NCBI GenBank assembly: GCA_009746045.1
Contig: RPFO01000165.1
Location: 1,658,046 to 1,722,045 of the forward strand
Length of the DNA: 64,000 nucleotides
Source: Mesostigma viride
Taxonomy: Eukaryota; Streptophyta; Mesostigmatophyceae; Mesostigmatales; Mesostigmataceae
Reading direction: 5' to 3'
Shown here: piece after piece, positions 18,390 to 59,999 of the stretch
Position numbering within the stretch: position 1 is the stretch's first letter
How the letters are laid out: the number at the start of each line of letters is the position of its first letter
The notes under the pieces: generated by a model
What the model was told of the DNA's origin: nothing
Seen by the model: the letters and a program-made list of their open reading frames with translations, nothing else
The model's database searches: none
Position numbers and translations under genes: made by a program

Positions 18390-18409
18390 TCCTTTGTGTT
18401 CAGCTGGCT

Positions 18410-18417
18410 AAGGGGGG
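18410..18417 (+). promoter_or_regulatory. Copia polypurine tract
   Basis: AAGGGGGG abuts the 3' LTR. The same octamer abuts the 3' LTR of the non-autonomous element K. Confidence 0.75.
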
Positions 18418-29136: not shown

Positions 29137-30288
29137 TCAAGCGCTGGCGCTGCCTGAAGAGGCCACTGGCTGCTCTCCAGGTGCTGCCTCCTCCTCACGC
29201 TCTTGTGCAGTGCGTGCCACCGGTGTCCCCACTCGTGGAACTGCGCGGACCTCCTCCGCGTTGTAGGGCCCAAGCACACGGCTAACCGGCCTGCCGGCTG
29301 CTGTCCGCTCCACTGGCACTCTGCGCGCGCTGCCCCGGCGATACCACTGCAGGTTCCTTACCCACCTGCTACCACCACCTCGCCGATCGTTGCGAGACCC
29401 CCGACCTATTTCAGCAAAGTCGTGCTCCGGCTCAAACGGAATGTTCAACTCTGCTCTGCGCCGAGCGGAGTACCCCTCGTTCGTGCCGTGGCCTTCGTCA
29501 ATCTGCTGTGACGACCTGGCTATGATGCCTGTCGGTCTGTCCACGAATTGCTCGTGGAAGTCTTCGTCGGTGACCTCCCGACCGGTGATTACCGTCACCG
29601 TTGGCTCAGTCGCCCCTGGCCTGCTCTGTACTCTCGGCGTGTCCAAGGTCGACCAGATGCCTGGCGGACGTGTGGTGATAACCCAGTGATCCGCGTGACC
29701 ACGCGACTCCTGGATCAAAATGTTAACCAAATGCTCACAAGTCTGAGCAACCACCTCTGCGGAATCCCACGGGCTGTCCGCTTCGCGCGTCTGCGCGTCC
29801 CGAATTATGTGCGACGCGTCGGTCCCCTCTCCCAGCGAGCTCGTCGCCACCCAGTGATTATACAACCTGGTACCACCTAAGCAGATGGCCACCAGCTGAC
29901 CCAGCGTCTCTCGCGCTAAGTCGAGCGCCTGGATGGTCACGTGCCCGCCCTGGTACGCAACTTCTAGACTGTAGATCAACGAAGCTATCTCGTCTCGTAT
30001 GGCCACGAGACGCTCCGTGCACACCCTCCCTGTTTCTCCTGGCGACGTCGTCGCCCGGATCCTCATCACCACGGGGTCGTTCGACGACGGCCCTGATGCG
30101 TTACCAAACACAGCCACCCAACCGCCCTCCGCAAGGCCCCGCGCAACGTAGGCCGCCTGCACGAAGGTGGAAGCGTTGGATTGATGAGTATAGGGATAGA
30201 AAGCGTTCTCGCGCGCCGGCAACTCTGGTGCTGCTTCGCGCCTGGGAGAAGACGACTCAGGTGTTTCAACCCGAGCCTCGGCCGACAT
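29137..30288 (-). CDS. Accessory ORF1 of element E' (383 aa)
   Basis: ATG at 30288 corresponds to the ORF1 start of element F. The two proteins share a long conserved core: FYPYTHQSN..TFVQAAYVAR, GWVAV, SPGETGRV, VAYQG.H, LYNHWVAT, LLQESRG-type and RRAELNIPFEPEHDF-type blocks, and both end in an Ala/Ser tail. I recognise no known family. It lies between the LTR and gag and is intact here although the rest of the element is gone. It could be a capsid-like or nucleic-acid-binding accessory protein. Confidence 0.7.
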   Translation of the reverse strand: MSAEARVETPESSSPRREAAPELPARENAFYPYTHQSNASTFVQAAYVARGLAEGGWVAVFGNASGPSSNDPVVMRIRATTSPGETGRVCTERLVAIRDEIASLIYSLEVAYQGGHVTIQALDLARETLGQLVAICLGGTRLYNHWVATSSLGEGTDASHIIRDAQTREADSPWDSAEVVAQTCEHLVNILIQESRGHADHWVITTRPPGIWSTLDTPRVQSRPGATEPTVTVITGREVTDEDFHEQFVDRPTGIIARSSQQIDEGHGTNEGYSARRRAELNIPFEPEHDFAEIGRGSRNDRRGGGSRWVRNLQWYRRGSARRVPVERTAAGRPVSRVLGPYNAEEVRAVPRVGTPVARTAQEREEEAAPGEQPVASSGSASA

Positions 30289-30318
30289 GAGACCACGCAA
30301 CAGGAATGCAATAATACG

Positions 30319-30679
30319 AGTTAAGAACCACGCCAGAGCTGTGAGCTCCTGGTCTTTCACGCGCACAACGGGATGAGCCAAAGTTGCAAGACAGCAACCT
30401 TTTAACCCGTGCACCAAGCCACGACCACGGTGAGCGTTTCCACGTCCAATGTGGGAGCCTCGGTTCGTGCTTGCCAAGATAGCTGGTCATCCCCCATGAC
30501 CAAGCTATATCCTTTGTGTTGTTCCTCGTTCCCATCGGCGTGACGCGGCCACGGACGGCTAGGACTTCGGGACCTCATATCTTTCTCGTCCCTTGTCTGT
30601 TTCAGGCGGTCAGCACGGCGTTGGAAAGGTCTTTCCAAACTGCATCCACTTAGCATATTGGTTGCCCAAAATGCTAACT
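30319..30679 (-). repeat. E' 5' LTR
   Basis: It starts AGTTAGCATT and ends TTAACT on the minus strand. Its first ~140 bases align with the F LTR (AGACCTTTCCAACGCCGTG and neighbours). It is shorter (361 bp) than F's 653–659 bp. The opposite LTR is not present. Confidence 0.6.
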
Positions 30680-31559: not shown

Positions 31560-32218
31560 AGTTAGCATTATGGGGCACCAATGTGCTAGATGGGTGCAGG
31601 TTGAGGAGACCTTTCCAACGCCGTGTCAACCGCCTAGAACAGACAAGGGACTAGAAAGATATCAGGTCCCGAAGTACTGCTGACCGGTGGGCGAGGGCGG
31701 TGCACTCTCAGGGCATAGTGGACAGGACACGTGGCAGGCCGTGCCTGCACAGGCTTAGCCTGAACTCTCACGTGACTGGGACACAGTGTATACTGAGGGC
31801 TCAACGGTCCTGTGGCTAGTAGAAGCCAGTAGCCAGCCAGCAGGTCTGCAAGGATGTAAGTCCATGCAGGACTGTGGCAGGTCCTGTGCTGTCCTATACA
31901 CAGGATAGCCAGAGATTCCTGTATGCTGCCTGCAACAAGGATGCAGGGCAGCGATACGAGGCTCTGGCAATGTAGCGTTGCCCAGCGTTGCTCATGACCG
32001 AGGAACAAGGATGGAACGAGGTTGCATATTATAGCTCGAGGCTCAACGAGGCAAGGAGCGTCTTCATACACGAACCTTGGTCGTCAGGACGAGTGGCGAG
32101 CCTATCGAGGGTCGTAGGCCTGGTGTGAGGATAAAGGTTGCTAGCCAGCAGCCTAGGGTCATTCCAGCCGGCAAGGACCAGGAGCTCACAAGCTCTGCTG
32201 ACGAGTTGCTGCGCAAAT
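31560..32218 (+). repeat. F 5' LTR
   Basis: 659 bp, matching 41931–42583 with small indels. The ends are AGTT...AAAT. Confidence 0.85.
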
Positions 32219-32243
32219 CGTACTATTGCTTCCAAGCGCTTTC

Positions 32244-33380
32244 ATGTCTGGTTCATCGTCAAGCAGCCACGGTGCTGGTGAGGCGAACGAGCAGAGAGAC
32301 GCGCAAGCGTTTTTCCCCTACCGTAACCAAGCAAACGCTCCAACATTCGTGCAAGCGGCCTACGTAGCGAGGCACTTGGCAGAAGAGGGGTGGGTGGCGG
32401 TGAGTGGGGGAGGCAGCAGGCCAGCGGCGGCGGACCCGATTATACAACGGGCTCGCGTCGTGATTTCTCCGGGTGAGACGGGGCGAGTGGCGGTGGAAGA
32501 GTTGGTGCGCATTCGTGACGCGCTAGCTGAAACTGCTAATCGTGTGGAGGTCGCCTACCAGGGCGCCCATATCACGCTAGCCGGTCTCGACCTAGCCAGG
32601 GAGGCGCTTAGCCAGATCGTGGCAACAGCGCTCGGCAGCACCAGACTGTTCAACCACTGGGTGGCGACAGCAGTGCTAGGAGAGGGGGTACCAGACGCCG
32701 ACATAATCCGGAACGCCCGAGCTCGCGAGGCGGTGAATCCTTGGAGCACGGCGGAGGTATTTGCTCAGACCATTGAGAATCTTGTTGCTGTCCTTTTGCA
32801 AGAGTCGAGAGGGTACGCAGACAGGTTCTATATTACCACGCAGCCTTTCGGAGTGTACTCCAGGCTTGATACACCGAGGCCGGAAACCACCACTGCGTGG
32901 GGTCCGGAGGTGGAGATTGTCACGGGGGTCGAGAAGACGCCTGAAGACGTCCATTTTGAGTGGACTGACAAGCCAGAGGGCTCCGTCAAGCGCTCAGCCC
33001 AGCAGATAAACGAGGGCGACGGCACTACAGAAACCTACGAGGAGAGGCAGAGAGCTGATCTGCATATTCCTCGTGAGGTGACTCACGAGTACGATCGTTA
33101 CGGCCGAGGCGAGCAGAACGAGCTTGTCGGCGGCGGTAAGCGGTGGGTACGCGATCTTGCTTGGCATCGCAACCCAGGTGAGACACAACATCCAGTCGAA
33201 CGCAAGGCAGACGGGCGACCTGTGACCTGCGTGCTGGGAGAGTTTAACCCAAACCTCCAGATTGTCGCAGAGGCAGCAGCAGCCACACCGGTTGCTGAGG
33301 GTGTTGAGCAGCGTCCAGACCGTGAGGAGGGGCAGGCGAGTGCAAGCCAGGAGGCGGCCTCGTCTGGAGTAAGTGCGTGA
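32244..33380 (+). CDS. Accessory ORF1 of element F (378 aa)
   Basis: The ATG at 32244 is 26 bases after the LTR. The protein is homologous to E' ORF1 over nearly its full length (FFPYRNQANAPTFVQAAYVAR, GWVAV, SPGETGRV, LFNHWVAT, LLQESRGYAD, HEYDRYGRG, CVLGEFNP). No known domain is recognised. It stops 54 bases before gag, so it is a separate cistron. Conservation between diverged copies argues for a function in the element's life cycle. Ordinary copia elements have no such ORF before gag. Confidence 0.75.
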   Translation: MSGSSSSSHGAGEANEQRDAQAFFPYRNQANAPTFVQAAYVARHLAEEGWVAVSGGGSRPAAADPIIQRARVVISPGETGRVAVEELVRIRDALAETANRVEVAYQGAHITLAGLDLAREALSQIVATALGSTRLFNHWVATAVLGEGVPDADIIRNARAREAVNPWSTAEVFAQTIENLVAVLLQESRGYADRFYITTQPFGVYSRLDTPRPETTTAWGPEVEIVTGVEKTPEDVHFEWTDKPEGSVKRSAQQINEGDGTTETYEERQRADLHIPREVTHEYDRYGRGEQNELVGGGKRWVRDLAWHRNPGETQHPVERKADGRPVTCVLGEFNPNLQIVAEAAAATPVAEGVEQRPDREEGQASASQEAASSGVSA

Positions 33381-33434
33381 GCCTGAGTGGGTTCCAGCAG
33401 CCATATCTGCGTGTGATGTCTGCAGTATTTTATA

Positions 33435-34511
33435 ATGCTTCGTAACACGCGCGGGAGCGGCAGCGGGAGCGGGGCGGGGGCGGGTAATGGCGGTGGAGAG
33501 GCAAGGGCGGATACGGGAGGCCCAGCCAGCGTCGTGCCAGAGGGACAGCCAATCCCAACGGCAGAGGGCGCCAATGGCAGGAGGGCATCCATCCGGAAGA
33601 GGAAGGAGGTGGCACAAGGGGAGGAGCGTGCGGGGTGGCCAACCGACGGCGTGGTGCTGACGGGGGAGGGCCAGGAGGATGCTGAACGTCAAGCACCTGG
33701 TAAGAGACCATGTGTGCCTGAGTCTGGTGTTCCTGCAGCTAGTGTTCCTGCGCCATTAGCACCTGTAGGAGCTGCAGTCATTGGCAGTGACCCTCGTGCT
33801 TTGCCTGGGACTAGACCTCATATGAGTGCTGTGGCTGTGATGAATGGCCAGAAGCCTCTCAAGCCTCCTGTGGGACAGGAAGAGCTAGACAAGTGGTTGG
33901 AGGATATGGAGCTAGTTTCTCGCTCTGTAGATCCCACTGTCAACCTTGTGCACGTATTCCACACATCCACGACTAATAGGGATTCCAGTGAGCGTGTGAG
34001 GGACAAGGCTAGGCAAGCTGTCAAGGACAAGCTGACTTGGTCTCAGTTCCTAGAGGGCCTACGTCAGGAGTTCTCTGATAAGGTACTCAACCTCACTAAT
34101 CACTATAAGCTCAGCTATGATACCTTTGAGATCAAGGGCACGGTAGCCGAGGAGCTGCAGTGGCTCACACGCATCAGGGAGAAGGGGGCCAAGCATGGCT
34201 TCAATCTGACTGACAGAGCAGTAGCAGATTACTTCATGGATCGCATGGGGCTGAGTGTGGATGGGAGAAATGCAGCCAGGATGTTTGCTGATCAGACAGA
34301 TGGGACGTGGACAGCCTTGCAAAGGGTTATTTTCAACATCCGTCCATCTGACAATGCTGCTTGCAAGGCAATGCAGGTGACTGGTGCCCCTTCAGCCTCC
34401 GCTCATCAGGTCCATGGAGATGCCCCTGGGCAGGGTGCTCAGGGAGATCCGAGGCCTAGTAGGCGTCAGAGGGCTAACAGGCGCAGGCAGAATGGTAACC
34501 AGGGTGGCAAG
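33435..34511 (+). CDS. F gag, N-terminal part (split by K)
   Basis: ATG at 33435 in TATAATGC. A Gly/Ala-rich, low-complexity N-terminus is followed by a helical capsid-like domain (QEELDKWLEDMELV, LTWSQFLEGLRQEF, ADYFMDRMGLSV). The frame is interrupted after Lys-359 by element K with duplicated GCAAG and continues in exact phase at 37128 into a Gln/Gly/Lys-rich linker and a zinc knuckle. Confidence 0.8.
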
Positions 34512-35110
34512 TGTCAAAAATCCTAATAATGCGTCAATGAATGAGCTCAAATGTTGCGGCACAACTCATTTCATTAATACAATAAAAGACGCATATATAG
34601 AATTTAAGGACCGTGACCGGTGTCCATTGCCAAGCCACAAGGCAACTGGCCCACCATCAGGTAACGTGAAAAGGTGCACGCCGACCTCTTAAACAATGTC
34701 CAATGTCGGCTGCACACATTATCCCTACGTTAACTTAACACATAAAGTGTCTCCACTTGCACAACTGGCACACAAAATCCACTAGGCAATGATGCGAATA
34801 TTCGGCACCAATATTCGACCCCACTATTGCGCGGCGCTAGGAGTTAGCCACCGCCAAATGGTACGAGATACTCACGCCCTACAAGCCGTACCATGCAACC
34901 ACAAGGTAGAGCCGAATTAATCCTAACTTCGGCACCTAATATCTTTGTGCATACTCAACTGTCCGTCATAAGAAAAGTACCGCCGGAAAGAACACGGCAA
35001 GCCCTACTCAGCCCTAATAATATCCTTGGCCAGAAAATACAGAAGATTGGCCACAACATAACATAGGCTGGCAAACGGGCACATCCAGGGTTTATACTAA
35101 AACCCTGACA
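34512..35110 (-). repeat. K 3' LTR
   Basis: 599 bp, TG...CA, same length as its partner at 36524 and with no difference I could find by eye. Confidence 0.9.
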
Positions 35111-36523
35111 CCCCCCTTGCACGTTGCCAGTGCAGGGTCCAATGAACGTCAAGTCCCCCCTCAACTAGGGTAGGGCTTGCCGGGTACAACATACCCCAGC
35201 AACCCCCCTTACCCGGGAAGCCCCTCCCAAGGAACCATCCAGCAACACATTCACTGAAAAAATGCCATCCTGGTCATAACAACAAAGGTGCTACATGCCT
35301 GCGTCTCTTCCAAAATACATCCAGGCGTCCCTAGAGGTATAAACTGACAGCCCCAGCGTCCCAGGTCTGATGCAGAAACACAGCAATAAGTCACAACAAC
35401 TACACTTGCCAGGAATAGCACACATGGGCAAACACTGCCCCATCAGGCTACCAATAGCCCTAAAATGGACCACCACGGTCCCAAGGCCTCCACGGCCCCA
35501 CGCTGGCACGCCGTCGTGCCAACAAACTCCCGGGAGTGATCAGGTCCCGAGCATGGAAAGTCAACCAAGAACTTCCCCCAGAGCGCTCCCATAACAGGTT
35601 GGACTGATCCCAACCTCCAGACTGGCCAAAACACTAGGCTGCACATGCTAGTTTGCCTCGTCCATTCAAAAACACAGCTGACCACCAAGTTTGCATGCAA
35701 AGCAGGCGCGTACATCCCAAAGTAGGTCAATACAGACCACAGGCCACGTTAGGCCCCACAAATGTCGTCGCGAGCCAGTCTCATGTCAACACACCCCCCC
35801 CTCAAGAAATAAGTGGGGGCAAATATTTTTGTCAGCTTTAAAATGTCACAAGCTCCCTTGGCTTAGAGCTTCTAAAATAACATGCAGCTCACTGGTACTC
35901 CTGACCAGCTTCAAAATCAAAAACCCACTGGCATAGCCAGCTTCAAAAGAGAGACCATGCTGGCACTCCTGGCCAACATCTTCATCGCCAACAAAAAGCC
36001 GGTAGGCAGGCAGTCCTCGTCGACAAAAAATGCTGGAAATTCCGCAGGCTGCGCCACCAAAAATGGCGATAATCCGTTGCGCTGGTTGCTCGCAAAATTC
36101 CAGCCGACGTCCGCTCCGAGCCACATGTTGATGCGCAGGTCACTGGTACAGAAAAAGAGAAAAAAGTCTGCACCCAGCTGGAACCAGAGCCTTGACCTCG
36201 CCATGCGGGGCTCAACGCCAGGCGGCGCCAGCCCACAGCAAACCCGAAACATGAAAGTTCCGCTGGCTTTGACACATATAACAACTCGCCTGCGTGGCTG
36301 CGCTGGCCCAGGCCTGTCGACCCATGAAATTTCTGCCCGTTCCGCCGAACTTCAAATTCAAAATGCTGCGACGTATGAATCCTCACGACATTGCTCACGA
36401 AATTACGTAACAACGCTGCCGCCATCAATTATATGCGCCGGCAGGGTAAAATGGCTTCATCATGGTCACAAGAATGTCGTTCAAAGTCGTCTCAAAGGTG
36501 GGGAACTTTCCCTCCCGATACCA

Positions 36524-37122
36524 TGTCAAAAATCCTAATAATGCGTCAATGAATGAGCTCAAATGTTGCGGCACAACTCATTTCATTAATACAATAAAAG
36601 ACGCATATATAGAATTTAAGGACCGTGACCGGTGTCCATTGCCAAGCCACAAGGCAACTGGCCCACCATCAGGTAACGTGAAAAGGTGCACGCCGACCTC
36701 TTAAACAATGTCCAATGTCGGCTGCACACATTATCCCTACGTTAACTTAACACATAAAGTGTCTCCACTTGCACAACTGGCACACAAAATCCACTAGGCA
36801 ATGATGCGAATATTCGGCACCAATATTCGACCCCACTATTGCGCGGCGCTAGGAGTTAGCCACCGCCAAATGGTACGAGATACTCACGCCCTACAAGCCG
36901 TACCATGCAACCACAAGGTAGAGCCGAATTAATCCTAACTTCGGCACCTAATATCTTTGTGCATACTCAACTGTCCGTCATAAGAAAAGTACCGCCGGAA
37001 AGAACACGGCAAGCCCTACTCAGCCCTAATAATATCCTTGGCCAGAAAATACAGAAGATTGGCCACAACATAACATAGGCTGGCAAACGGGCACATCCAG
37101 GGTTTATACTAAAACCCTGACA
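36524..37122 (-). repeat. K 5' LTR
   Basis: 599 bp, next to the TGGTATCGGGAGG primer site. Confidence 0.9.
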
Positions 37123-37127
37123 GCAAG

Positions 37128-37400
37128 GGCCAGCAGCAGGGATCCAAAGGCAAGGGTCAGCAGCAGGCTGGTGGTCACCAGGGTGGTCAGCAGAACAAGG
37201 GTGGCCAAGGGCAAGGCAAGAGCCAGGGCCAGGGCACCCAGGCCAGTCAGAGCAGCCAGAACCAGGGTGGCCTGAAGAAGGCTGCTGCTGGGAAGGATGA
37301 CAAGTGCTTTGGATGTGGCAGGACGGGTCATTGGCGACGTGACTGCCCAGACCAGGCCAAGTCTGCTGGAGCAGGCTCTGGCCAGGTGGGTAAGCCATGA
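37128..37400 (+). CDS. F gag, C-terminal part with zinc knuckle
   Basis: This continues the gag frame after K: a Gln/Gly/Lys-rich low-complexity segment, then CFGCGRTGHWRRDC (C-x2-C-x4-H-x4-C), the nucleocapsid knuckle that packages RNA. It ends in TGA at 37398–37400. The pol frame follows in the same phase with no other stop, so the TGA may be read through. Confidence 0.8.
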   Translation, partial: GQQQGSKGKGQQQAGGHQGGQQNKGGQGQGKSQGQGTQASQSSQNQGGLKKAAAGKDDKCFGCGRTGHWRRDCPDQAKSAGAGSGQVGKP

Positions 37401-38630
37401 CTTGATGTGTTGTCCCCTCTAAATAGTCAATCACCCCTAGTGGGACGAACAGTTGTACATATTAATGGGGGTGTCCCTCTTGTGCAGCAGCAAGGGGTTG
37501 GGAATGATGAGGTGCTTCCACTCAATGATTGCAATAACGCTGCTGCAGCAGTGGAATTCCCTGTGCCTGTGGCAGGTGCAGGGTCTCCAGTTGTTGGGGT
37601 TGACTCTGGGAGTCAAGCCGCCAGACTGGAAGGACCTGCAGCTTCTGTGGGAACCGGGGCTGGCTCTGGGAGCCGAGCTACCTTGGAGGAGGTCCCTGGA
37701 GCAAGAGAACAGCAGGTGGGTCGTGCTATCCCAAGCACACAGTCTTTGTCACGTTCCTCTCTGTGCAGCCAGGCTGACAGGGGGTTGAGCTATGCTCAGG
37801 CTGGAAACACTCTACACCATATCTTTGGCCACTCTAAGCAGGCAGAGATGTTTGCTTGGAAGATTGGCAAGGAGCCTTTGCTAGAGGCCTGCAGTGCAGC
37901 TGCTCAGAATTGTGTCTGTCAGGAGAATGCTGTTCGCCTCCCACAGTCCCATGCCAGAGAACCTGCTAGAGAGCGGGGGGATATCCAGGTGGACATCCAA
38001 CACATCAGGGGCATGTATCTGTTGGTGGGGGTGGATAGGTTTAGCAGATATAGGTTGCTGACCATTCTTCCTGGAATGCAGGAGCATCAGCTGTTGATGG
38101 GTCTCCAGTCTTTGTTGCCAGGCTTTGGGGTGTACACCAAGGTGCAAGCTGACTTGCAGTTTGACTGCTTGATCAAGCTGGCTGACCAGCTTCCTTGTAA
38201 GTTGGTAGTGGTCCCTAGGGAATGCCATGGGCAGCAGGGAGCTGTAGAGAGATCTATACGTGAAGTAAAAACAGTGGTGCTAGCAGCTAGGAGTGTGCCT
38301 GTTGTGGCATCAGCTCTAGAGAAAGCAGCTTGGTGTAAGGGGATTGAGGAGCAGCTTAACCACAGGGTAACCTATTACTATGATGGTGTGGCAGTCTCTC
38401 CCCTGGCATTGCAGTTTGGTATGCTATCACAGGACGTGGTGGCAGCCTGCCTGAAGAAGGCAGACAGGGTGTTTTCCAGATTGAGGCGTAAGGACAAGGG
38501 TTGGAAAATGCTGAGGCCCCAGGTGGGACTGAGGGTCAGGATGTGGAAGGAACCGTCATTACCAGGCAAGCGTGGCAAGTGGCAAGATGGGCAGGTAACC
38601 CATGTTGAGAAGCTAACCATTCTTGTCTGG
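37401..38630 (+). CDS. F integrase
   Basis: It is in phase with gag after one TGA. A variable Gly/Ser-rich stretch is followed by an HxxxH-type start (HHIFGHSKQAEMF), a CxxxxxC pair (CSAAAQNCVC) and a core with the acidic triad D (IQVDIQH), D (QADLQFD) and E (GAVERSIREVK). A basic C-terminal part (RMWKEP...GKWQDGQVTHVEKLT) follows. It inserts cDNA as in other copia elements, but the sequence is divergent. The frame is lost near 38625 by one base. Confidence 0.78.
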
Positions 38631-40993
38631 TGGCTTTGGAGAGTAATCCCAAGCACGTGTACAGGCTATCCTGGGCTCACGTCAAGGAGAGAAGGCCAAC
38701 TGCAATCTGGCCTGAAGACGGCCCTGATCCTCCCTTGGAGGGAGATGAGCAGGATGAGAGCCAGGCAGCAGATGCTAACCCACCATGCTTGGATTATGGT
38801 CTGTCCTGGATGGATGAGGGTGAGCAGGAGTCTGCTGAGACGTCTGTCACAAGGCCAGAGGTGGCCAGGGCTGCACCACAGTCCAGGGGGCTGCTTATGG
38901 CGGACATCATTCGAGCTCTGCAGAACAGCAAGCGTGATCCCAAGGTATCTAAGCTCACGGGATGGGGGTCATGTGGGGCACCAGCACTAGAAGTGGATAC
39001 CAACTCACAGGTGTCCATTCTAAGGGTAGAGGATGCTGCAGGCTTGCAGTGGTCATCCCCTAGCTGCCTAGCTGTGTCTGATTTCTCTGGGAATGTGTCC
39101 ATGAAGATCTTGGGAGAAGTGAGTGTGCCTATCCTGGGGGTGCCCACCACGTTCAGTGTGGTTGAAGGGTATCAGGGGCCTGCCATTCTAGGTCAGAACT
39201 TCTTGTGCTTACCAGGGGTGAGGATATCCTCTGAGGAGCTAGCATTAGAAGGGCAGGGCCGCCTTCCCTTGCAGAGATATCGCTACTCCCAGGGTCTTAG
39301 TGTGGCTGTAAGGGCTGTGAGGGGTCTAGAGGCAGAGGGTCCTGATACAAAGGAGCCCATTGCTGGGGACCTGCTGATCCTCCCTACTACGTTTGACCCA
39401 CGTGAGTTGGGTGTGCAGAGGTACCAGATCCCAGGAACGAGTCCTGTACCTTGGCGCAAGCTAGTGGAGATGATGCAAAGCCCCAAGATGGCTAAGGCAT
39501 GGACTCTTGGCTTTGTTGCTTCTGGGCATGAGTGGATAGTTGCCAACTGTGCAGAGCCTGTGGATGTCCTCCCTGAGGATCACCAGCTGCTCAGGTTGAT
39601 GTTTGTCCTCAAGCTCAAGGAGGTAGATGGCGTGCAGGTGCCACATGTTAGACCAGTTGTGACTGAGTACCATGGCACTGGACAGTTAGCAGATGAGGAG
39701 CTTTACACACCAGGGATGCTGCATGATACATGGAGGATTTTGTTGTGCATTTACTTGTCTTTTCTGCAGAAGGGGATACCCTATAGCTCTGTGTTGGTAG
39801 ATTTCAAGAGGGCTTTTCTTAAGGGTGATCAGCAGGAAGCACAGGATACTTGGCGCACAATACCCCCTTTCTTTGTTAAGGTGCCTGCAGTGTGGAGGGC
39901 AGAGCTGAAGACGAGGTATTTGAGGATTCTCAAAGGCGTGGAAGGCCTTAGATCGAGTCCCATCATCTGGAGGAAGAGCTTGGAGAAGTACCTCAGGTCT
40001 GTCTGTGGTCTCTCAGTCTCTCCAGTTGATCCTTGTCTGTTTCAGGGTAGCTATGAGGGGCTGCCAGCGTTTGCCTCCCTGCATGGTGATGATCTGCATC
40101 TCCTGGGCCATCCCACTTGGCAAGAGTTGACTCTGGCCAGGATCCAGAAACGGTTTGAACTGGGTAAGATCCAGTACATGGTTGAGAATGAGCCCATGGT
40201 GTTTTGTGGAATGCAGGCGACCTTGGTCCATCAGCAGGGTACATGGTCCATCCAGCTGGAGGGTGGTAAGGATTATCCTCAGCAGATCATAGATGCCTTG
40301 CAGGAGCCCATCACCCAGGCCAGATGTGCAACAATACGAGGTATGTTGGCATGGCTGGCCAGCATTTGTGCTCCTGACCTGTTGGTACTGAGTCGGTTGA
40401 CCGATTCCCAACTGGTTGAGGTGGGTGCTGAGAGAGTGGTAGAGGCTGTTCGCATGTCTCCCCCTCTCATGCTGGGTCCTTTGGATTTGTACAGGCCTTT
40501 TGACATGATGCTCTATGTGGACAGTTCTATGGATAGTAGGAAGGTCACAGAGGTCAGGGGCCGTGCAGCAGCATTAATATCCCTGGTGCAGGAACAGTCC
40601 TCTCTGGTCTGCTGGTACAGTCGGTTGCAAAACAGGGTAACTCCCAGCAGTGACATTGCTGAGTGCAGGGCAATCTGTGAAGGGCTTCATACTGCTCTTT
40701 ACTTGAGGGAGCTATTTTACCAGCTATGTCAAGTGGCTTCCTGTCGGTTGCAGATGCACACACTGGTAAGAACTGACAGCATGGGCATGGTGCAGTTTGT
40801 GCACAGGCAGCTGGCCAGGAGCAGGGACCTTGATTATTTGTTGCTCAAGGAAATGTCTTGCTTAGCTAACATTGAACATGTGGCTGGCGTGGACAACCCT
40901 GCAGATGCTCTCACCAAGCTGGAGGAGAAGGCTGAGCTGCAATACCCTTTGCTTCGTGGGCTCATGGCCTCCAAGGGGGGAGGGCCAGAGTAG
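38630..40993 (+). CDS. F protease-like domain, reverse transcriptase and RNase H
   Basis: The region begins with HVYRLSWAHVKERRP, a tail normally close to integrase. The protease-like domain comes next: ALEVDTNSQVSIL with a DT dyad and, about 75 residues later, AILGQNFL, the two hallmarks of retropepsins. It lies after integrase, not before it. RT follows with VDFKRAFLKGD, GVEGLRSSPIIW and the catalytic box SLHGDDLHLL. RNase H has LYVDSSMDSR, SSDIAECRAICEG, RTDSMGMVQF and DNPADALTK. The Gly of DTG and the Tyr of YxDD are both replaced. The stop is at 40993. Confidence 0.85.
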   Translation: MALESNPKHVYRLSWAHVKERRPTAIWPEDGPDPPLEGDEQDESQAADANPPCLDYGLSWMDEGEQESAETSVTRPEVARAAPQSRGLLMADIIRALQNSKRDPKVSKLTGWGSCGAPALEVDTNSQVSILRVEDAAGLQWSSPSCLAVSDFSGNVSMKILGEVSVPILGVPTTFSVVEGYQGPAILGQNFLCLPGVRISSEELALEGQGRLPLQRYRYSQGLSVAVRAVRGLEAEGPDTKEPIAGDLLILPTTFDPRELGVQRYQIPGTSPVPWRKLVEMMQSPKMAKAWTLGFVASGHEWIVANCAEPVDVLPEDHQLLRLMFVLKLKEVDGVQVPHVRPVVTEYHGTGQLADEELYTPGMLHDTWRILLCIYLSFLQKGIPYSSVLVDFKRAFLKGDQQEAQDTWRTIPPFFVKVPAVWRAELKTRYLRILKGVEGLRSSPIIWRKSLEKYLRSVCGLSVSPVDPCLFQGSYEGLPAFASLHGDDLHLLGHPTWQELTLARIQKRFELGKIQYMVENEPMVFCGMQATLVHQQGTWSIQLEGGKDYPQQIIDALQEPITQARCATIRGMLAWLASICAPDLLVLSRLTDSQLVEVGAERVVEAVRMSPPLMLGPLDLYRPFDMMLYVDSSMDSRKVTEVRGRAAALISLVQEQSSLVCWYSRLQNRVTPSSDIAECRAICEGLHTALYLRELFYQLCQVASCRLQMHTLVRTDSMGMVQFVHRQLARSRDLDYLLLKEMSCLANIEHVAGVDNPADALTKLEEKAELQYPLLRGLMASKGGGPE

Positions 40994-41930
40994 ACCAAAC
41001 AGCCTTGCTCTAGGTGGGAGGCATCCCAGTGGGCTGGGCAGCCACGTGGTGGCTGACAGCAGGTCCTTCAGAGTTCAGACACACTCTGCTGGACAGGGGT
41101 CAGGGTGGAGTCACTCCCCTGGCTGAGAATTTCGCCTGGCTCTGTCATGGAGCTGCAGAAGAGTCTTAAGGACTTTGTAATGGGCCTTGGGTCTTCATGG
41201 AATGGACCCTGCAAGGGCAGCCCAAGTGTTGGCTCTAACAGGTTGCTGTACATTTGTATATATTCTCTGTAACCAACCTGTTGCATGCTAATAAAATCCC
41301 TGGTTGTGTGACCATGTTGGACGTGGTTGCCAGGGGCCTCACTATGGGTTATACTTCTTTATAATAAAACATAATCTTGTTATTGTCATGTCTTGTTGTT
41401 TGTGATGCTCAGTTCCAGGAGCTGATCCAAACCTGGAGGATATGGGGTGGGGTTCGATTCCCCAGCTGACCTCAGCCTGGCATGTATGAATCCTGAGTTT
41501 ATCCCTCAGTGAGGACATGGGCTCCCCATGTGTTGGCTAACATTTGTCAGGGCTCTCTCAGTCTTTGGAAGGATTTAAAAGATAAAGGAGGCTCCGTGGC
41601 GGGCGCCATATGAACGGGCGCCTGTGATAACTGGATGACCAGGAACTCACAATAGTACGTTCATGGACTCCTCTATCCAAACTCCTCTGACTAAGTGAAG
41701 ACCTAACTTTAATCTACACCAGGTTCCCAAAGAAAGGGTTGGGATGTCATGTGGGTCAGAGGGCAACCTTTGAACCAATGAGCAGGCCTAGCTAATATTT
41801 GGAGGCACCTCAGGTTCCAAAAGAAAAGGCAGGTCTGGTCTCTGGGAGGGATCAGATGTCTGAAGGCTTGTGGGGACAGTGGCTGATAGGTTCTCAGGCT
41901 GGTCCAAGCTCCAAAACAAGAAAGGGTTGG
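40994..41930 (+). other. F 3' region before the LTR
   Basis: About 0.94 kb without a convincing ORF. There is an AATAAA near 41289 and A/T-rich stretches around 41360–41400. There is no strict polypurine tract; GAAAGGGTTGG precedes the LTR. Confidence 0.5.
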
Positions 41931-42583
41931 AGTTAGCATATTGGGGCACCAATGTGCTAGATGGATGCAGGTTGAGGAGACCTTTCCAACGCCGTGTCAA
42001 CCGCCTAGAACAGACAAGGGACTAGAAAGTTATCAAGTCCCGAAGTACTGCCGACCGGTGGGCGAGGGCGGTGCACTCTCAGGGCATAGTGGACAGGACA
42101 CGTGGCAGGCCGTGCCTGCACAGGCTTAGCCTGACTCTCACGTGACTGGGACACAGTGTACTGAGGGCTCAACGGTACTGTGGCTAGTAGAAGCCAGTAA
42201 CCAGCCAGCAGGTCTGCAAGGATGTAAGTCCTTGCAGGACTGTGGCAGGTCCTGTGCTGTCCTAGACACAGGATAGCCAGAGATTCCTGTATGCTGCCTG
42301 CAACAAGGATGCAGGGCAGCGATACGAGGCTCTGGCAATGTAGCGTTGCCCAGCGTTGCTCATGACCGAGGAACAAGGATGGAACGAGGTTGCATATAGC
42401 TCGAGGCTCAACGAGGCAACGAGCGTCTTCACACACGAACCTTGGTCGTCACGACGAGTGGCGAGCCTATCGAGGGTCGTAGGCCTGGTGTGAGGATAAA
42501 GGTTGCTAGCCAGCAGCCTAGGGTCATTCCAGCCGGCAAGGACCAGGAGCTCACAAGCTCTGCTGACGAGTTGCTGCGCAAAT
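41931..42583 (+). repeat. F 3' LTR
   Basis: 653 bp, AGTTAGCAT...GCGCAAAT, followed by the GACAA duplication. Confidence 0.85.
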
Positions 42584-42588
42584 GACAA

Positions 42589-42978: not shown

Positions 42979-44310
42979 TTAGACAGATAGACCAACTTGG
43001 CAGTCAGCATTCATGAGCTTCCTCAGTACATTGTACTGGGCTGGGGCCTTCTGTGGCAGCTTGGTCAATGCATCAGCAGGGTTCTCCTCGCCAGGGATAT
43101 GCTTCAAGTCAACCAAACTGGCCAACTCCTTCAGCAACAAATAATCCAGATCCCGGCTCCTGGCCAGCTGCTTGTGAACAAACTGGACCATACCCATGCT
43201 GTCTGTTAGCAACAACGTCTCCATCTGCAAGGACCAAGGGGTAACTGAAGCGAGCTCCAGCATTAACTCCTTTATGTACAAACTGGACTGGATCCTCTCA
43301 CATATGGCCCTGCATTCTGCCACATCTGAACTGATACAGACCCTCTTCTGAAGTGTGCTGTACCAGCTGAACAAACTTGCCCTGCTCTGATAAAAAGCAA
43401 ACAGAGCAGCAGATCTCCCCCTGACCTTGGTAACCTGGCAAGCATCCATGGAACTGTCAACAAAGATCTCCAAGGTGATAGGCTGGGCAAAGTCAATCCC
43501 AGACAAAATCAGATCAGGGGTACTCTCCACCAATCGGGCTATGACTCGAGGCTTCTCATCCTCAAGCACATCATCAGGCATTCTGCTATGGACCATCAAA
43601 GACGGACCACAGATGCTGGCAAACCAGGCCCACATGCCTCTCAACTCAGGACCTGCAGCCTGGGCGATCTTCTCTGGCAAGGCCTTCACAATGGTCTGCT
43701 TATAATCTCCTCCAGCCTGAAGCCTGATACTCCACTCCCCATCCCTCTTGAACAGGGTAGCCTGCATTCCACAGAACACTACCGGCTTGTTGGGTTCCTG
43801 CCACAGCTCCTTGCCCAGTGCAAACTTGCCACTGATGACAGGAATAAACTTCTTCAGCCAGGTCGTGGGGGCTAGCAAATGCAGATCATCTCCATGCAAA
43901 CTAGCATACACTGGCAGACCCTCCCATTGGGCCAGCAACAAACAGGGATCAACTGAAGACACTCTCAAGCCACACTCACTGATCAGAGCTTCCTGCAGCG
44001 TGAGCCTCCAGATGATAGGGCTCGACCTGAGTCCTTCCAGGCCCTTCAGAATAACCAGGAAATGTTGATGCAGCTCCAGCTTCCAGATAGCAGGCACCTC
44101 AACACAATAAGGCTCATCCTGCTTCCACACTCTCCTGGCCACTTCTGGATCAGATTTTAAAAATGCCCTCTTGAAGTCCAGCAGCACTGATGACATAGCT
44201 GCTCCCCTGTTCAGCAACCCCACGTATAGACACAGCAAAATTCTCCACGCGTCGTGTAACATCCCTGGCGTGTACAGCTCCTCTCCCAGCAGACTCCCCG
44301 TGCCGTGTGT
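42979..44310 (-). pseudogene. Element L: RT–RNase H of another copia-like element, 5'-truncated
   Basis: Homologous to the F pol C-terminal half: EELYTPGMLHDAWRILL, LLDFKRAFLKSD, GLEGLRSSPIIW, the catalytic box SLHGDDLHLL, FVDSSMDACQ, SSDVAECRAICE, LTDSMGMVQFVH and NPADALTKL. The reading loses similarity before HGTGSL at about 44310, so integrase and gag are missing. No flanking LTR could be identified. It is another member of the HGDD family, clearly diverged from F. Confidence 0.75.
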
Positions 44311-45392
44311 CAGAAAAATATGACCCAATCTGTCCAATCTTTCCACTTAGCCTGAATATTCCAATTCTGGGTACAGGAGGAAATGGGCAACTGTGAAGAC
44401 CATGGCTGGAATCAGTAAAATATGGCGAAATTAATGATGACAATCCGCTTTAATATTCACCAATTTAATTTAGGCTGCGGCCATGAGGCGGCCAGCTGCC
44501 ATAGCTCAGCATATCAAGGCTTACAGGAAAAATTGCCAGAGCAACATTATGTGGAAAAGCACATCGTCCCTATAGCCATCGATCTAGGAATAATCTACGG
44601 CACAGTTAGGGGGCAGGCCAGCCGCCACACAAAAGTGGGTGGCTTGCATCAACACAGAAATGATGCGTTGGGTCACTAGTATGCAAGTACAAAGACATTG
44701 CGCCTCCAGGGCAGCACTTAGTGAAAAGAGGGTCGGCGCGAAGCGCGGATCCTGACGAATTTGTCCGACGGCTACAGTACCAGCAGGACAGTGCTTGGTA
44801 CGGTACGGATGGCAGCAAACAGTGCTGGAAATACATTTAGTGCCGATTTATACTACATCGGACTTTGACAAAGTGGACTGAAAATATAAGTATCGCGACG
44901 GATAATACAACAAAGTACCGTCGAAGCTGAAAATATAAGTATCTCGACGGATAGTACAACAAAGTACCGTCGTAAATTATTTGCTAGCTGCAGGGCAAAG
45001 GCAACTATCGTTGACACACCCCCGTGAGTTGAGTAACTCTAGAGCCCTAGGATCTGGCTCTAAGTTCCCCATGTCCGTCCGCACGCCTTCCGCTAGCGTC
45101 CGCTAAGCCGCCGGCTATAATCCAGCGGTCCGATGCGGTCGACCGGTCTAAGGGCGGCGCCTAGGGCCGGCGCCACCTAGGCCCCAGGCCGGGGCCTTAT
45201 CCGGGTCGGTACGGACAGTTAGCCTGTCCCACGGTTACGGCTAACCGGATAGGCTTTGCTGGCTAAGACATAAACCAGTGGTTGGCCAGCTCCGACAGCA
45301 GTTCTCTGTGTTCACCTTATCCCAAACTCAACGTGACCGACCGCCATAGCTTAGCCGGTCATGTCCTTTAACTTGTATTCATAAAAATCCCG
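44311..45392 (+). other. Non-coding region before the gag of element I
   Basis: No gene is recognisable. A 49-bp unit is repeated twice (44878–44926 and 44927–44975), each with a CGACGG / CCGTCG inverted repeat. GC-rich inverted repeats around GGCGCC and CCTAGG lie near 45150–45200. A CCGCCATAGC string lies near 45340. The stretch may include the LTR and leader of element I, but I could not place LTR ends. Confidence 0.4.
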
Positions 45393-48792: not shown

Positions 48793-50298
48793 CTAGGCGT
48801 CCCCCCTATGGGGCAGGGTTGCCTGCTTGCCATAGGGGTTCATCAAGTGGTACAACAGCTGATATTGTTCAGCTGCCTGCTGAGGCACTTTAGTGAGTGC
48901 ATCAGCAGCGTTGTGTTTGTCCTCCACGTGACGGGTGGACTCCCAGTAGGTGGACTCCTGTTTAAGGACCACCCAGTCAAGATCAGTGTGCACAGCATAG
49001 GGGTTAGCAAGGAAACTGAGGACTGACTGACTGTCAGTGAGCAAGTGTGCCACCACCCCAGCATTGCTGCCTGTTTGCATCTGCAACCAAACCAGCACAT
49101 GATTCAAGTACCTGGCATGAAGCACTGCTGACACCACTGCCCTGCACTCAGCAGCATTGCTGCTGACAGCCTTGCGTCTATGCAACCGGCTGTACCATGA
49201 AATGAGAGACAAGGGTGCATCATCATTCTGCACAAAATACAAGCCTGACTCCCTTGCCTGCAACTTGGTAATCTGCCTGGACTCCATGGAACTATCCATC
49301 ATAGCTTGGATGTGAATGGTTTTGTGGAGATCCAAGGAGTGCAAGATAAGGGGAGGGCCTTCCTGGAGAGTTTTGGTGATGGCTTTGTGACCTACTTGCA
49401 TCAAGACATCATCATCCACTCTGCTAACCACAGCCAGGTGAGGTGCACACGTTGAGCACAACCACCCCAGCTTGCCTCTAATGGTGGGACAGGCTCCAGG
49501 TTTGATTTTGGTTTGCAAAACCTCCAAGCAACTGTGCATGTAATCATTGGGAGAGTAAAGTGCACCCACCCACTGGTTTTGATGCTGCTGGAGTTGTAAC
49601 ATTGTGCCACAAAATTTTATGGCAGTGGTGCCCAGCTCTACTTGCTTGCCAATTTCAAAATGCTGTGACACTTGTTGTATAAAATCATCTACAGCACGCC
49701 TTGGCCCAGCAATCAGCTGATCATCCCCATGCCACACAAAGGTGAGTATGCCATGAGAGTGTGGGACCACAAAGAAGCAAGGGTCTATGTCATCATATCT
49801 AGCCCCTAGCTTTTCAAACACCGCCTGAGCTGACATCCTGAAAATGCGAGGAGCTGATTGCAGCCCTTCAACACCTATGTTAGCTTTCAGGTACTGCTGA
49901 GGGATGTGTTTTGCCCAAACTCTGGGAGTGGAGACTACATACACCTGACCATGCCACACTTGTTGTGCTATCTCAGGTGAGCCTTTCAGGAAGGCCCTTT
50001 TAATGTCTGTAGCCTTACAAACATAATAGTCATCCCCGTCATTGAGATGACCCACAAAGACAGACAGCAAGATTTTAAGAGAGGTCTGCTGAATGCCTGG
50101 TGTGTACAACTCTGCCTCTGTCAGATCAGTGGTGCCCTTGAACTCTGTCACACAAGGTCTAGCATGGAAAATGACTGACCCATCTGCTGCTGGCTTATGT
50201 TTACACACAAACTTCAGGCGCAAGTGCTTGCACCCTGCAGGCTTTTTGTCAATAGGTGTGACAGGTGGAGTGTGAGAGGGGCTAAGAGGATCTGGCAC
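48793..50298 (-). CDS. G1 reverse transcriptase–RNase H
   Basis: The frame has TEFKGTTDLTEAELYTPG, ATDIKRAFLKGS, GVEGLQSAPRIF, the catalytic box FVWHGDDQLIAG, IRGKLGWLCS, MMDSSMESRQ, SSNAAECRAVV, LTDSQSVLSFL and KHNAADALTKV. These are the RT and RNase H signatures of the F family, with HGDD replacing YxDD. It follows the protease-like segment, separated by a short deletion-induced frameshift near 50290–50330 that is absent in G2. Confidence 0.85.
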   Translation of the reverse strand: MPDPLSPSHTPPVTPIDKKPAGCKHLRLKFVCKHKPAADGSVIFHARPCVTEFKGTTDLTEAELYTPGIQQTSLKILLSVFVGHLNDGDDYYVCKATDIKRAFLKGSPEIAQQVWHGQVYVVSTPRVWAKHIPQQYLKANIGVEGLQSAPRIFRMSAQAVFEKLGARYDDIDPCFFVVPHSHGILTFVWHGDDQLIAGPRRAVDDFIQQVSQHFEIGKQVELGTTAIKFCGTMLQLQQHQNQWVGALYSPNDYMHSCLEVLQTKIKPGACPTIRGKLGWLCSTCAPHLAVVSRVDDDVLMQVGHKAITKTLQEGPPLILHSLDLHKTIHIQAMMDSSMESRQITKLQARESGLYFVQNDDAPLSLISWYSRLHRRKAVSSNAAECRAVVSAVLHARYLNHVLVWLQMQTGSNAGVVAHLLTDSQSVLSFLANPYAVHTDLDWVVLKQESTYWESTRHVEDKHNAADALTKVPQQAAEQYQLLYHLMNPYGKQATLPHRGDA

Positions 50299-51873
50299 TA
50301 CCCATTCTTCCCTGGCCTTGCACCCATTTTAGGAAACCTATGTGTGTGCGACAATCTTGCTCTATCTGTTCATAAGAAAGAGGAGACATTTTAGCCACAT
50401 CATGCTTGCCCAATCCAAAGGAGGTGGGATGAAGTTTTTGGTTATGAACCAAGTCTGCCACACAAGGTTCTTGCCCTGGGGCATACTTGGGGGTAGCAAA
50501 TTTTACAGAAGCAATGTTGGTGTTAAGAAGTTTTTGAAGGGAAATTTTGAAATGATTCAGATCAACACCACCCAGGTCCTGAATGGATAGTCTATCACTG
50601 GAAATAATGACACCAGGGTAAGAGAGAAAAGGATCCCCCAACAAAGCATTGCCTTTATAACCTTCCAATACCTGAAAAGGTGTGGGGATACCAAGTATAG
50701 TCAACATGACCTGACCTTGTACCTTGAGGGATGACTGCCCTGAGAAATCAGCCACATGGTGCCAGGGTGAAGGTTCCAAAGGCATATGGGGCACAGCCAG
50801 GGCACTGATAATGCTGACCTGGGCTTGTGTGTCCACTGCAACCGTAAATGGGCTATTGTCATTCTGCCCAACCTTCCCCACCTTAGCTGATCCTGCAGCA
50901 GTTTGAGCTTTAGCTCTATGAGCTGATTGTAGAATGCGAACAGCTTCTGCTAGGCTGCGTTTGGAAGATGCAGCTAGTGGCTGAGCTGTGTTCACAAGTG
51001 AAGAGGTGAGAGGTTGCTGCTCACCTGTTTTGCCATTGTAACCCTCTGCTGCAGGGGGCCAAGCCTGCAGTGACTGCCTACAATCATCAAGGGTGACCTG
51101 GGTGTCACAGTGGGTGTGGCTCTCACACTCACCAGTGGGTGTTCCAAACAACCACTCACTGGGCAACGCTGGGATGCCAGGCAACTGTACAGGGCTGTCG
51201 GCCAACAGCTCTTCCTCCTCTGCCACGTCTGACACAGTTGGAAAATACAATTTCATCCTGTGAGGTGAACACCTGTGAATCTTTCCCGTGTCATTGTGTT
51301 TAACCAGCACTGTCCTGCCAGTGGTATTAAACTTTAGGATGGTGGCTGGCCCATGCCAGGTACCCACCTTGCCTAGTCCCGACTCCTTGTAGAATAGGAC
51401 CTGGTCTTCTTCTCTGAAGGTGGGACGTGGATGCTTTGCATCCTTGACAGCTAACCTGCTAGCTGTATGCGCTCGCTGTGCATTGTATAGGGCTAGTACC
51501 TCAGGTGGATAAATGCCTGCATGCAATCCATCTGGTGTAATGATCACCCCTTGTGGGGTTTTCATGAGTGGCCTCCTGTTGAGGACTTGGCACAACCTGG
51601 TGGACCACAGAGCTCTGTCAGCATATGACCCACTGTCAGCCAGCAGATTACCATCTTCCTTGGCTACAAGGGTTTTAATGGACCTGATGGCCCTTTCAAT
51701 AATGCCTTGCCTCTCATGATCTTCTAGCCCAGCCAGATCAATAGCCTCACACCCTGGTTCATTGGCAAGACACGTGAACTGTTGATCCAGTAATAATGCC
51801 TCCACAGGGTAGTACCTGGCCTGAGCAATCAAGAGAGCCCTGAGCAACTGTGTCTTGTCCATTCCAGGTAATG
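50282..51873 (-). CDS. G1 integrase C-terminal half and protease-like domain
   Basis: It begins where palindrome P ends. LPGMDKTQLLRALL, ALLLDQQF (second acidic residue) and GIIERAIRSIK (Glu) complete the integrase core. QVLFYKESGLGKVGTWHGP is the C-terminal barrel. Then comes VAVDTQAQVSIISALAVP with a DT dyad and, ~80 residues on, ALLGDPFL, the retropepsin signature. The Gly of DTG is Gln. This protease position, after integrase, is the same as in F. Confidence 0.8.
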
Positions 51874-51878
51874 GTTCA

Positions 51879-51954
51879 GTTATATACATCGATTCCTTAC
51901 GGAATCGACACTAAGCGCTTAGTGTCGATTCCGTAAGGAATCGATGTATATAAC
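51879..51954. repeat. P hairpin 1, perfect 76-nt palindrome
   Basis: All 38 base pairs match, centred on AAGCGCTT. It starts GTTATATACATCG and ends with the reverse complement. Confidence 0.92.
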
Positions 51955-52014
51955 TAAAACTTTTGCTTGCGCCGGCAAGGCTAAGGCCGATACTAGTCGG
52001 GTCATCGAATTGGC

Positions 52015-52107
52015 TATTCGATTATCGAAGATGCCTATTCGACCATCGAACTTTCCTTTTTGATTATCGAATTTTCCTTATTCGATTGTCGAAATTTCCT
52101 ATTCGAC
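52015..52107. repeat. Iteron-like repeats in the P arm
   Basis: About four and a half units of 21–22 bases built on TATTCGAYYATCGAA, itself an inverted repeat around TTCGA/TCGAA. The mirror copy lies at about 52895–53000 in the other arm. Confidence 0.65.
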
Positions 52108-52431
52108 GGGGGGTCAGAGGCCAGCGGCCTATCATACTCGGTGCCCAGCGAGCCACCGAACTAGGCCTAGTCGATTATAGCGAGACATCGCGTGGAAATT
52201 AGCCGATTTCGGGGACTTAGCCGATTTTCGGAGCAACGTCGAACAACACAGATGATTAGCCAGTTGAGCACATCATATCAGTCGAATAGCTAGCGCTGGT
52301 ACTCCGCCTAGTAAGCGGAGAGCACTTGCCTTTTTCGATTAACATAGCGCATTAATTAGGCCGAACGATTAGCGTCCGCAACGTTATTCGCATTTCTAGG
52401 CGAAAAATCCACCCCCGGAACGATCCTAGCG

Positions 52432-52442
52432 GGATTCGAACC
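52432..52442 (-). other. tRNA-like B box beside the central hairpin (left arm)
   Basis: GGTTCGAATCC on the minus strand matches the pol III B-box consensus. The neighbouring bases look like a tRNA T-arm and 3' acceptor strand, but no 5' half of a tRNA is present. The mirrored copy is at 52576–52586 on the plus strand. Confidence 0.5.
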
Positions 52443-52471
52443 CGGGATGCCGGCGTGTCGCAACAGTCTTA

Positions 52472-52546
52472 GTTATATACATCGATTCCTGCGGAATCGA
52501 CACTAAGCGCTTAGTATCGATTCCGTAAGGAATCGTTGTATATAAC
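52472..52546. repeat. P hairpin 2 (central)
   Basis: 75 nt, with a few mismatches relative to hairpin 1. It forms the symmetry centre of the whole element. Confidence 0.88.
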
Positions 52547-53053
52547 TAAGACTGTTGCGACACGCCGGCATCCCGGGTTCGAATCCCTCAATCGTTCGGG
52601 GGGATTTTTCGCCCAGACATGCGAATAACGTTGCGGACGCTAATCGTTCGACCCAATGTGCTGTGTTAATCGAAAAAGGCAAGTGCTCTCCGCTGAATAG
52701 GCGGGGTACCAGCGCTAGCTATTCGACTGATATGATGTGCTCAACCGGCTAATCATCTGTGTTGTTCGACGTTGCTCCGAAAATCGGCTAAGTCCCCGAA
52801 ATCGGCTAATTTCCACGCGATGTCTCGCTATAATCGACTAGGCCTAGTTCGGTGGCTCGCTGGGCACCGAGTATGATAGGCCGCTGGCCTCTGACCCCCT
52901 GTCGAATAGGAAATTTCGACAATCGAATAAGGAAAATTCGATAATCAAATAGGAAAGTTCGATGGTCGAATAGGCAACTTCGATAATCGAATAGCCAATT
53001 CGATGACCCGACTAGTATCGGCCTTAGCCTTGCCGGCGCAAGCAAAAGTTTTA

Positions 53054-53128
53054 GTTATATACATCGATTCCTTACGGAATCGACACTAAGCGCTTAGTGT
53101 CGATTCCGCAGGAATCGATGTATATAAC
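53054..53128. repeat. P hairpin 3
   Basis: 75 nt, one base shorter than hairpin 1 in one arm. It lies at the right end of the element. Confidence 0.88.
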
Positions 53129-53135
53129 TCGTTCA

Positions 53136-53647: not shown

Positions 53648-53805
53648 CGTGGGGCGGCCCGTGGCACTTGTGGCACAGGACGTCCAGATGCCCCAGCTCG
53701 TCCTCGTTCTTGTGGCAGGTAGGCCGCAGGTGGTACCTCATGCCACAGCGGGTGCACCGCTGAGAAGACTTGTCCTCCTTGTCCTGCTTGTTGTTGTTAT
53801 TGTTT

Positions 53806-53879
<74 letters not shown>

Positions 53880-54671
53880 GCTGTTGTTGTTGTTGTTGTT
53901 GCTGTTGTTGTTGCTGGAGCTGCCCCCCTTGGAGGGAGACTGCCCCTTACCCTTGCCCTTGCCCCAGCCCCTGCCCCTGCCCTTGCCCTTGCCCTTGCCC
54001 TTGCCCTTGCCCTTAAACAACTGTCCCAGCAGGGACTTGACCTCTGCCATGGTTACAGGTCTCTTGCTCCTGTCTTCCCTCTCCCTGTCCTCCTCCTCCC
54101 TATCCTCCCCCCTGACCCTTTTTACAGAGGTGCCCATGGCCCCCTGGCTTAGTGGGGCCAGGGCCAGCTTGATATAATCCAATGCCTCCTTCATGTCCTC
54201 CCAGTACTTTGCCATTCCTGTTGCAAGCATAGCGTAGGTGTTTTTGTCAAGTTTGAGTTTCTCAAGGAACGCAGCAAGAACTTATGATCTAGCTGCTGGA
54301 CATCAGGACGTGCTTTGATGGCTAGCTCATATTTCTTGGTCTCAGCCACATAGTCTACGGAGGTGACCCTGTATTCCTCTACCCACCTGAATGCCCCATA
54401 TATGTCCACAGATGAGGGGGTGGAGAGGAGGTCAGTTAGCTCCTTCATGAAGGCCTCCCAAACTGCCCTAGCCTGCGTGTCCTGCCACTTGGGATACCTA
54501 CGCTGGAAGACAAGGATGAGATTCTGAATCTGAGAGGAGGACTGATGGTAAAAATCCCCCTGCATGAGAGATCCAAACCAATTCTTAACATTCAGTTCCT
54601 CCCTAGCCAGCTGAAGAGAGAGAAGTGCATGATTCCCCTGCTCCCTAGTATACCCCTCAGGCAGCCCCCTG
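53475..54671 (-). pseudogene. G1 gag, C-terminal two-thirds
   Basis: From the G2 insertion point: RGLPEGYTREQGNHALL, a helical capsid region (LILVFQRRYPKWQDTQAR, FRWVEEYRVTSVDYVAETKKYELA), a frameshift near 54240, a Lys/Gly repeat (GKGKGKG), a long Asn run coded by AAC repeats and two Cys/His clusters (CTRCGMRYHLRPTC and CHKCHGPPHGDPKDC). The N-terminal part lies at 63155–63285 beyond G2. Confidence 0.75.
53788..53913 (-). repeat. AAC/AAT triplet repeat coding poly-Asn in G1 gag
   Basis: About 40 near-perfect triplets (TTG on the plus strand) encode an Asn run inside gag. The G2 counterpart (59933–60026) is shorter, so the repeat length is polymorphic between near-identical elements. Confidence 0.9.
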
Positions 54672-57548: not shown

Positions 57549-57609
57549 ACAAGGTCTAGCATGAAAATGACTGACCCATCTGCTGCTGGCTTATGTTTAC
57601 ACACAAACT

Positions 57610-59932: not shown

Positions 59933-59934
59933 TC

Positions 59935-59999
<65 letters not shown>

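Follow-up and report, generated by a model that had tools for sequence, protein, structure and literature searches.

Pol domain order ranks among the main criteria for classifying LTR elements, and in Copia elements the protease (PR) is expected before the integrase (INT). The window analysed here, a stretch of 64,000 nt from Mesostigma viride (GCA_009746045.1, contig RPFO01000165.1, positions 1,658,046-1,722,045, forward strand), raises the question whether copia-like elements exist with the order GAG-INT-PR-RT-RH, that is with PR placed between the integrase and the reverse transcriptase (RT), the RNase H (RH) coming last. An earlier note had proposed this order for element F on the plus strand and for G1 and G2 on the minus strand, and its motif coordinates agree with ours: VDTNSQVS and ILGQNFL in F, and VDTQAQVS and LLGDPFL in G1 and G2, lie between the integrase and RT motifs (Table 1), and gag and integrase of G2 form one open frame with no protease between them. 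As G1 and G2 are copies of one family (96% identical), the window holds two families and not three; that divergent families share the order nevertheless held for F, G, M1 and P0001. In F the order stood as described, but the gag is split by a nested element, and INT and PR-RT are distributed over two overlapping frames. A canonical copia with PR before INT in the same window serves as internal control.

Table 1. Coordinates of the LTR elements, their domains and motifs in the window
Feature	Position	Strand	Remarks
Canonical copia	13001-19195	+	LTRs 100% identical; outside the lineage; PR at 14789 (Pol_BBD 1.5e-15), ahead of integrase motifs 15161-15655 (rve 6.8e-11)
F element	31560-42583	+	LTRs 97.1% identical; GACAA duplication on both sides
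F 5' LTR	31560-32218	+	Starts AGTTAGC; target duplication GACAA 31555-31559
F gag, first part, up to nested insert	33417-34511	+	
Nested 2.6-kb LTR element in F gag	34512-37122		LTRs 599 bp, 100% identical; duplication GCAAG
F gag, last part, past nested insert	37128-37397	+	CCHC zinc knuckle
In-frame UGA between F gag and pol	37398-37400	+	Context TGA CTTGAT
F integrase, HHCC to C-terminal part	37812-38606	+	HHCC at 37812; D/D/E 37986-38255; Pfam rve 0.044
F retropepsin-like domain	38930-39304	+	VDTNSQVS 38990-39016 (triad Asp 38996-38998); ILGQNFL 39185-39205; no Pfam match of its own
F reverse transcriptase	39590-40477	+	HGDD box 40076-40096
F RNase H	40478-40993	+	Start approximate
F 3' LTR	41931-42583	+	Terminates GCAAAT; GACAA at 42584-42588
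Truncated relative, RT-RNase H	42979-44346	-	72% identical to P0001
G1 RT and RNase H	48793-50328	-	RVT_2 7.5e-10
G1 retropepsin-like domain	50525-50899	-	VDTQAQVS 50813; LLGDPFL 50624; same frame as integrase end (50282-51910)
G2 element	54672-63149	-	Inside G1 gag; target duplication CAGGG
G2 LTRs	62693-63149 and 54672-55128	-	99.3% identical
G2 RT and RNase H	56193-57590	-	
G2 retropepsin-like domain	57931-58305	-	Segment folded; VDTQAQVS 58219; LLGDPFL 58030
G2 open frame, gag zinc knuckles and integrase	58659-60221	-	No protease between

The individual copies carry some further features. Between its 5' LTR and gag, F has an extra open frame (32202-33380) with a 53.5% identical relative at 29137-30486 (minus strand) in the neighbouring element and no clear counterpart in M1. 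The G1 integrase is interrupted by a 1.25-kb palindromic (fold-back) insert at 51878-53129, with a 5-base overlap of the G1-G2 alignment at its ends, and the gag regions contain poly-asparagine tracts of unequal length (53788-53913 in G1, 59932-60024 in G2).

The order was surveyed through the assembly (440 Mb, 2,243 contigs); as only the best candidates were scored, the copy counts are lower bounds, biased toward intact copies. Each of the 38 best of 10,017 M1 candidates contained an unbroken INT-PR-RT-RH frame of 1,196 codons, 63-64% identical to P0001 among those scored. For F the 57 best of 8,657 candidates were scored and, by frame length, 21 of them had a frame of 1,197 codons, against 794 codons in the window copy. 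The 80 best of 6,602 G candidates were at least 95% identical with an INT-PR span free of stops, and frames of more than 1,600 codons were found in four of the 80. All motifs were present within such a frame in copies L024 and L025; the frame stops inside RT in L022 and lacks the exact HGDDQ string in L023. L024 is bounded by 455-bp LTRs (100% identical) and the target duplication GAGAC, and encodes GAG-INT-PR-RT-RH in one frame of 1,614 codons, with zinc knuckles from codon 379, HHCC at 501, D/D/E at 559-648, VDTQAQVS at 932, LLGDPFL at 996, HGDD at 1303 and RNase H at 1448; L025 shows the same series in 1,609 codons. Among the 80 best of 7,640 candidates of family H, 15 had a 1,320-codon frame and 11 had internal stops; in copy L028 the domain lies between the C-terminal part of the integrase and RT, the integrase core being beyond the stretch fetched.

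P0001, a protein from a separate record, has INT-PR-RT-RH in a single frame, is 48% identical to F and was one of seven proteins recovered with alignment A2. The EukProt protein P0002 (Mesvir1) is 99% identical to the F frame over the part covered (14%), and its remainder resembles the F integrase frame by eye. Another EukProt protein, P0007, is labelled Prorocentrum lima and equals the F protein (38609-40990) except for the last two residues, a near-identity that suggests cross-contamination of that data set. No full-length relatives of the G polyprotein were found at E <= 0.01 among 888 candidates, and viral contigs searched with P0001 gave no match. Related elements with the same order were found in families M1, G, F and P0001, and in H, a fourth group of the genome, the domain likewise precedes RT.

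As regards the superfamily, RVT_2 scored above its cutoff (31.6 bits) in G (39.3 and 36.8 bits) and H (48 bits) and below it in F (19 bits) and P0001 (15.5 bits), with no match in M1; F, P0001 and M1 were counted as having a Copia-type RT because their RT is 36-39% identical to that of G. RVT_1 had no match in these elements as against 1.1e-28 in the gypsy element of the window, and Pfam rve passed its cutoff in none of them. INT precedes PR and RT, and the Ty3/Gypsy order PR-RT-RH-INT with an RVT_1-type RT is not the one observed. In keeping with Ty1/Copia, integrase lies before RT in F, G and P0001 (H shows the C-terminal part of INT only), and LTRs are accompanied by short target duplications. 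PR sits between INT and RT and not, as in Ty1/Copia, between gag and integrase, where no protease was recognised, and for this reason we name the elements copia-like and not canonical Copia. Their LTRs have the ends AGTT...AACT in L013 (M1), G2, L024 and L025 and AGTT...AAAT in F, with target duplications of 5 bp in F, G2, L013 and L024 and a match of 4/5 bases in L025; TG...CA ends are found in the window on the canonical copia and on the nested element. The three other families share with G 37-43% identity in PR, 34-37% in RNase H, 28-35% in INT and 19-33% in the flanking linkers. Among themselves, F, M1 and P0001 are 45-62% identical in PR, 43-59% in INT, 56-74% in RT and 58-77% in RNase H, RT and RNase H being better conserved than PR.

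The nature of the domain behind the integrase was examined by structure prediction and by profile searches. The folding input (alignment A6) had the trimmed G2 segment first and included H rows; the 8 rows are partly redundant, G1 and G2 being 94% identical and L048 and L050 nearly alike. AlphaFold predicted the domain with a pLDDT of 79.6 and a pTM of 0.75 (an earlier, wider fold, A4, of 210 aa and 6 rows had reached a pLDDT of 39), and the matches listed were retropepsin-like in 50/50 cases for VIA and 50/50 for Foldseek. Among these listed matches the Foldseek E-values were modest (best 2.2e-4, with TM 0.43-0.63 to query length) and the best one was a host-type protease, DDI1. A retropepsin fold is therefore predicted, in line with the earlier note. 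Searches for the protease from sequence alone stayed below threshold. The gypsy-type family PF13975 was the one recurrent Pfam match (4/5 and 5/8 segments), the F segment alone had no Pfam match, and A2, A3 and A6 found nothing significant in profile searches of the PDB, where a non-protease ranked top with A6. Aligned by hhalign to 434 windows from 80 frames of at least 150 codons in the 64,000 nt, A3 showed no link with the gypsy PR or the copia PR there, and Pol_BBD, copia's own protease domain, matched none of these elements.

The C-terminal box of two hydrophobic residues and Gly is present as ILG or LLG in 8/8 A6 rows. At the active site, where retropepsins have D-T/S-G, D and T are invariant in the 8 A6 rows and P0001 and are followed by N, Q or D; the triad thus reads DTN, DTQ or DTD and never DTG in the families examined, and as it is without Gly we label the domain retropepsin-like. 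The H copy L049 (843-1238, minus strand) has NTD where DTD is expected, the single exception seen. Between H1 and H2, dN and dS were 0.244 and 1.46 in PR, 0.265 and 0.69 in the linker before it and 0.159 and 1.08 in the stretch after it; in other H pairs the dS of PR was saturated or nearly so. We consider it likely that the elements are LTR retrotransposons which combine a Copia-type RT with GAG-INT-PR-RT-RH order and in which a domain of about 110 residues with a retropepsin fold acts as the protease. The missing triad Gly is the main doubt about its catalytic activity. As Gly at this position is the rule in active retropepsins and N, Q or D replaces it in every family examined, the domain may instead have kept the fold and lost catalysis (DTG to DTN/Q/D), serving in dimerisation or as a spacer while a host protease such as DDI1, itself the best structural match, does the maturation or none is needed. 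Against such a loss stand the invariant Asp and Thr, with L049 as the sole deviation, and the box kept in all A6 rows, and we regard it as rather unlikely.

As the recurrent match is to PF13975 and not to Pol_BBD, a protease that seems moved may in fact be replaced: the domain resembles DDI1 and gypsy proteases, a replacement and a shift are equally likely, and this likeness together with the lack of a Pol_BBD match tends to favour replacement over a shift. Most likely, the order is a derived state of one lineage, in which the protease was replaced or transferred. That it is instead an old order retained by a deep-branching lineage would suit the great divergence of RT and INT, with RVT_2 exceeding its cutoff just in G and H and rve in none, and the different LTR ends; PR before INT is however what is described for Copia, a change in the lineage is the simpler reading, and we find the retention of an old order improbable. 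The elements could tentatively be placed as a separate lineage beside or above the known Copia clades, marked by GAG-INT-PR-RT-RH order, by AGTT...AACT ends and by a retropepsin of DDI1/gypsy type that took over from the copia PR and works with a Gly-less D-T-N/Q/D active site, a proposal that we regard as possible though somewhat doubtful; if true, the triad rule would not hold for every active retropepsin.

A normal copia protease might also lie between gag and integrase, too diverged to be recognised, the domain after the integrase being an extra. The slot, measured from the last zinc knuckle to HHCC of the integrase (from the protein start in P0001), spans 80 aa in G (L024), 154 in F, 174 in M1 and 157 in P0001, and a retropepsin monomer needs about 100 residues, more than the G gap offers. 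An I/L-I/L-G box is absent from the gaps of G, F, M1 and P0001, a D-S/T-G triplet from those of M1, P0001 and G, and Pfam gave no protease match between gag and integrase in these elements. The F gap holds a lone VDSGSQ (37599-37616) with no ILG box after it, the one point in favour of a hidden protease. By Pfam and motif scan none was recognised there, as the earlier note had also held for G2, and we judge its presence very improbable. Neither of the two findings that the earlier note had named as fatal, a predicted fold other than retropepsin or a genuine protease ahead of integrase, was made. A rearranged copy, a recombination product or an assembly error, suggested by the frameshifts and nested inserts that break F, G1 and G2 in the window, is next to impossible and ruled out, as far as the assembly is trusted, by uninterrupted frames at numerous loci and contigs (M1, L024 and L025 among them) and by P0001 from another record, so that the earlier note was right to reject a single rearranged copy.

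How the protease might be expressed was considered from the gag-pol junction. A UGA with C as the next base is a leaky stop context. In M1, TGA CTTGAG stands directly ahead of pol in 8/8 fetched copies (L001-L008), with a whole knuckle upstream in frame with the TGA in 6/8; in F, TGA CTTGAT is found at the same place, 17 codons past the knuckle. A gag-pol stop is absent from L024 and L025 of G. No RNA structure stands out 3' of the UGA (z -0.24 in F, -0.80 in M1). Stop-codon readthrough is a possible explanation of the UGA-C that separates gag from pol in F and M1, where Pol including the protease would be made in this way, and in G gag and pol form one polyprotein. PR, placed between the C-terminal part of integrase and RT with the usual copia slot holding no recognisable protease, would dimerise within Gag-Pol, use the Asp of D-T-N/Q/D as an aspartic protease, cut out INT and RT on either side and mature gag. 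The Gly-less triad, the AGTT...AACT ends and the in-frame UGA-C of F and M1 go beyond what the earlier note had described.

In comparison with known systems, the elements share with Ty1/Copia (Pseudoviridae) an RVT_2-type RT (G, H), integrase before RT, LTRs and a 5-bp target duplication, and differ in the protease after integrase, the lack of a Pol_BBD match and the AGTT...AACT ends (G, M1). The DDI1 domain and ASPRV1 are cellular proteases with a DSG triad, whereas here DTN, DTQ or DTD occurs inside a retrotransposon polyprotein. The Gmr1 lineage of Ty3/Gypsy (PMC2774666) likewise has a Pol order departing from that of its superfamily, but there integrase moved to a copia-like place, whereas here it is the protease whose place differs and the elements are copia-like. 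Troyka (PMC12440569) is also a lineage distinguished by LTR ends other than TG...CA, but has CG...CG ends, a 3-bp target duplication and the Gypsy-like order PR-RT-RH-IN; the LTR of TARE1 is reported to begin with TA (PMC3701649). No INT-PR-RT element appeared among the listed results of open-access literature searches, a direct search for this order returned no paper, and an earlier description may exist elsewhere, for instance in Repbase. The words 'copia' and 'gypsy' are absent from the main text of two Mesostigma genome papers.

The genome of the streptophyte green alga Mesostigma viride is full of copia-like elements with PR after INT, with thousands of candidate places at first look. This lineage breaks the Copia rule of PR before INT and shows that the logic of polyprotein processing does not dictate where the protease must lie. 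With a Gly-less retropepsin-like domain kept over divergent families, the catalytic rule becomes directly testable.
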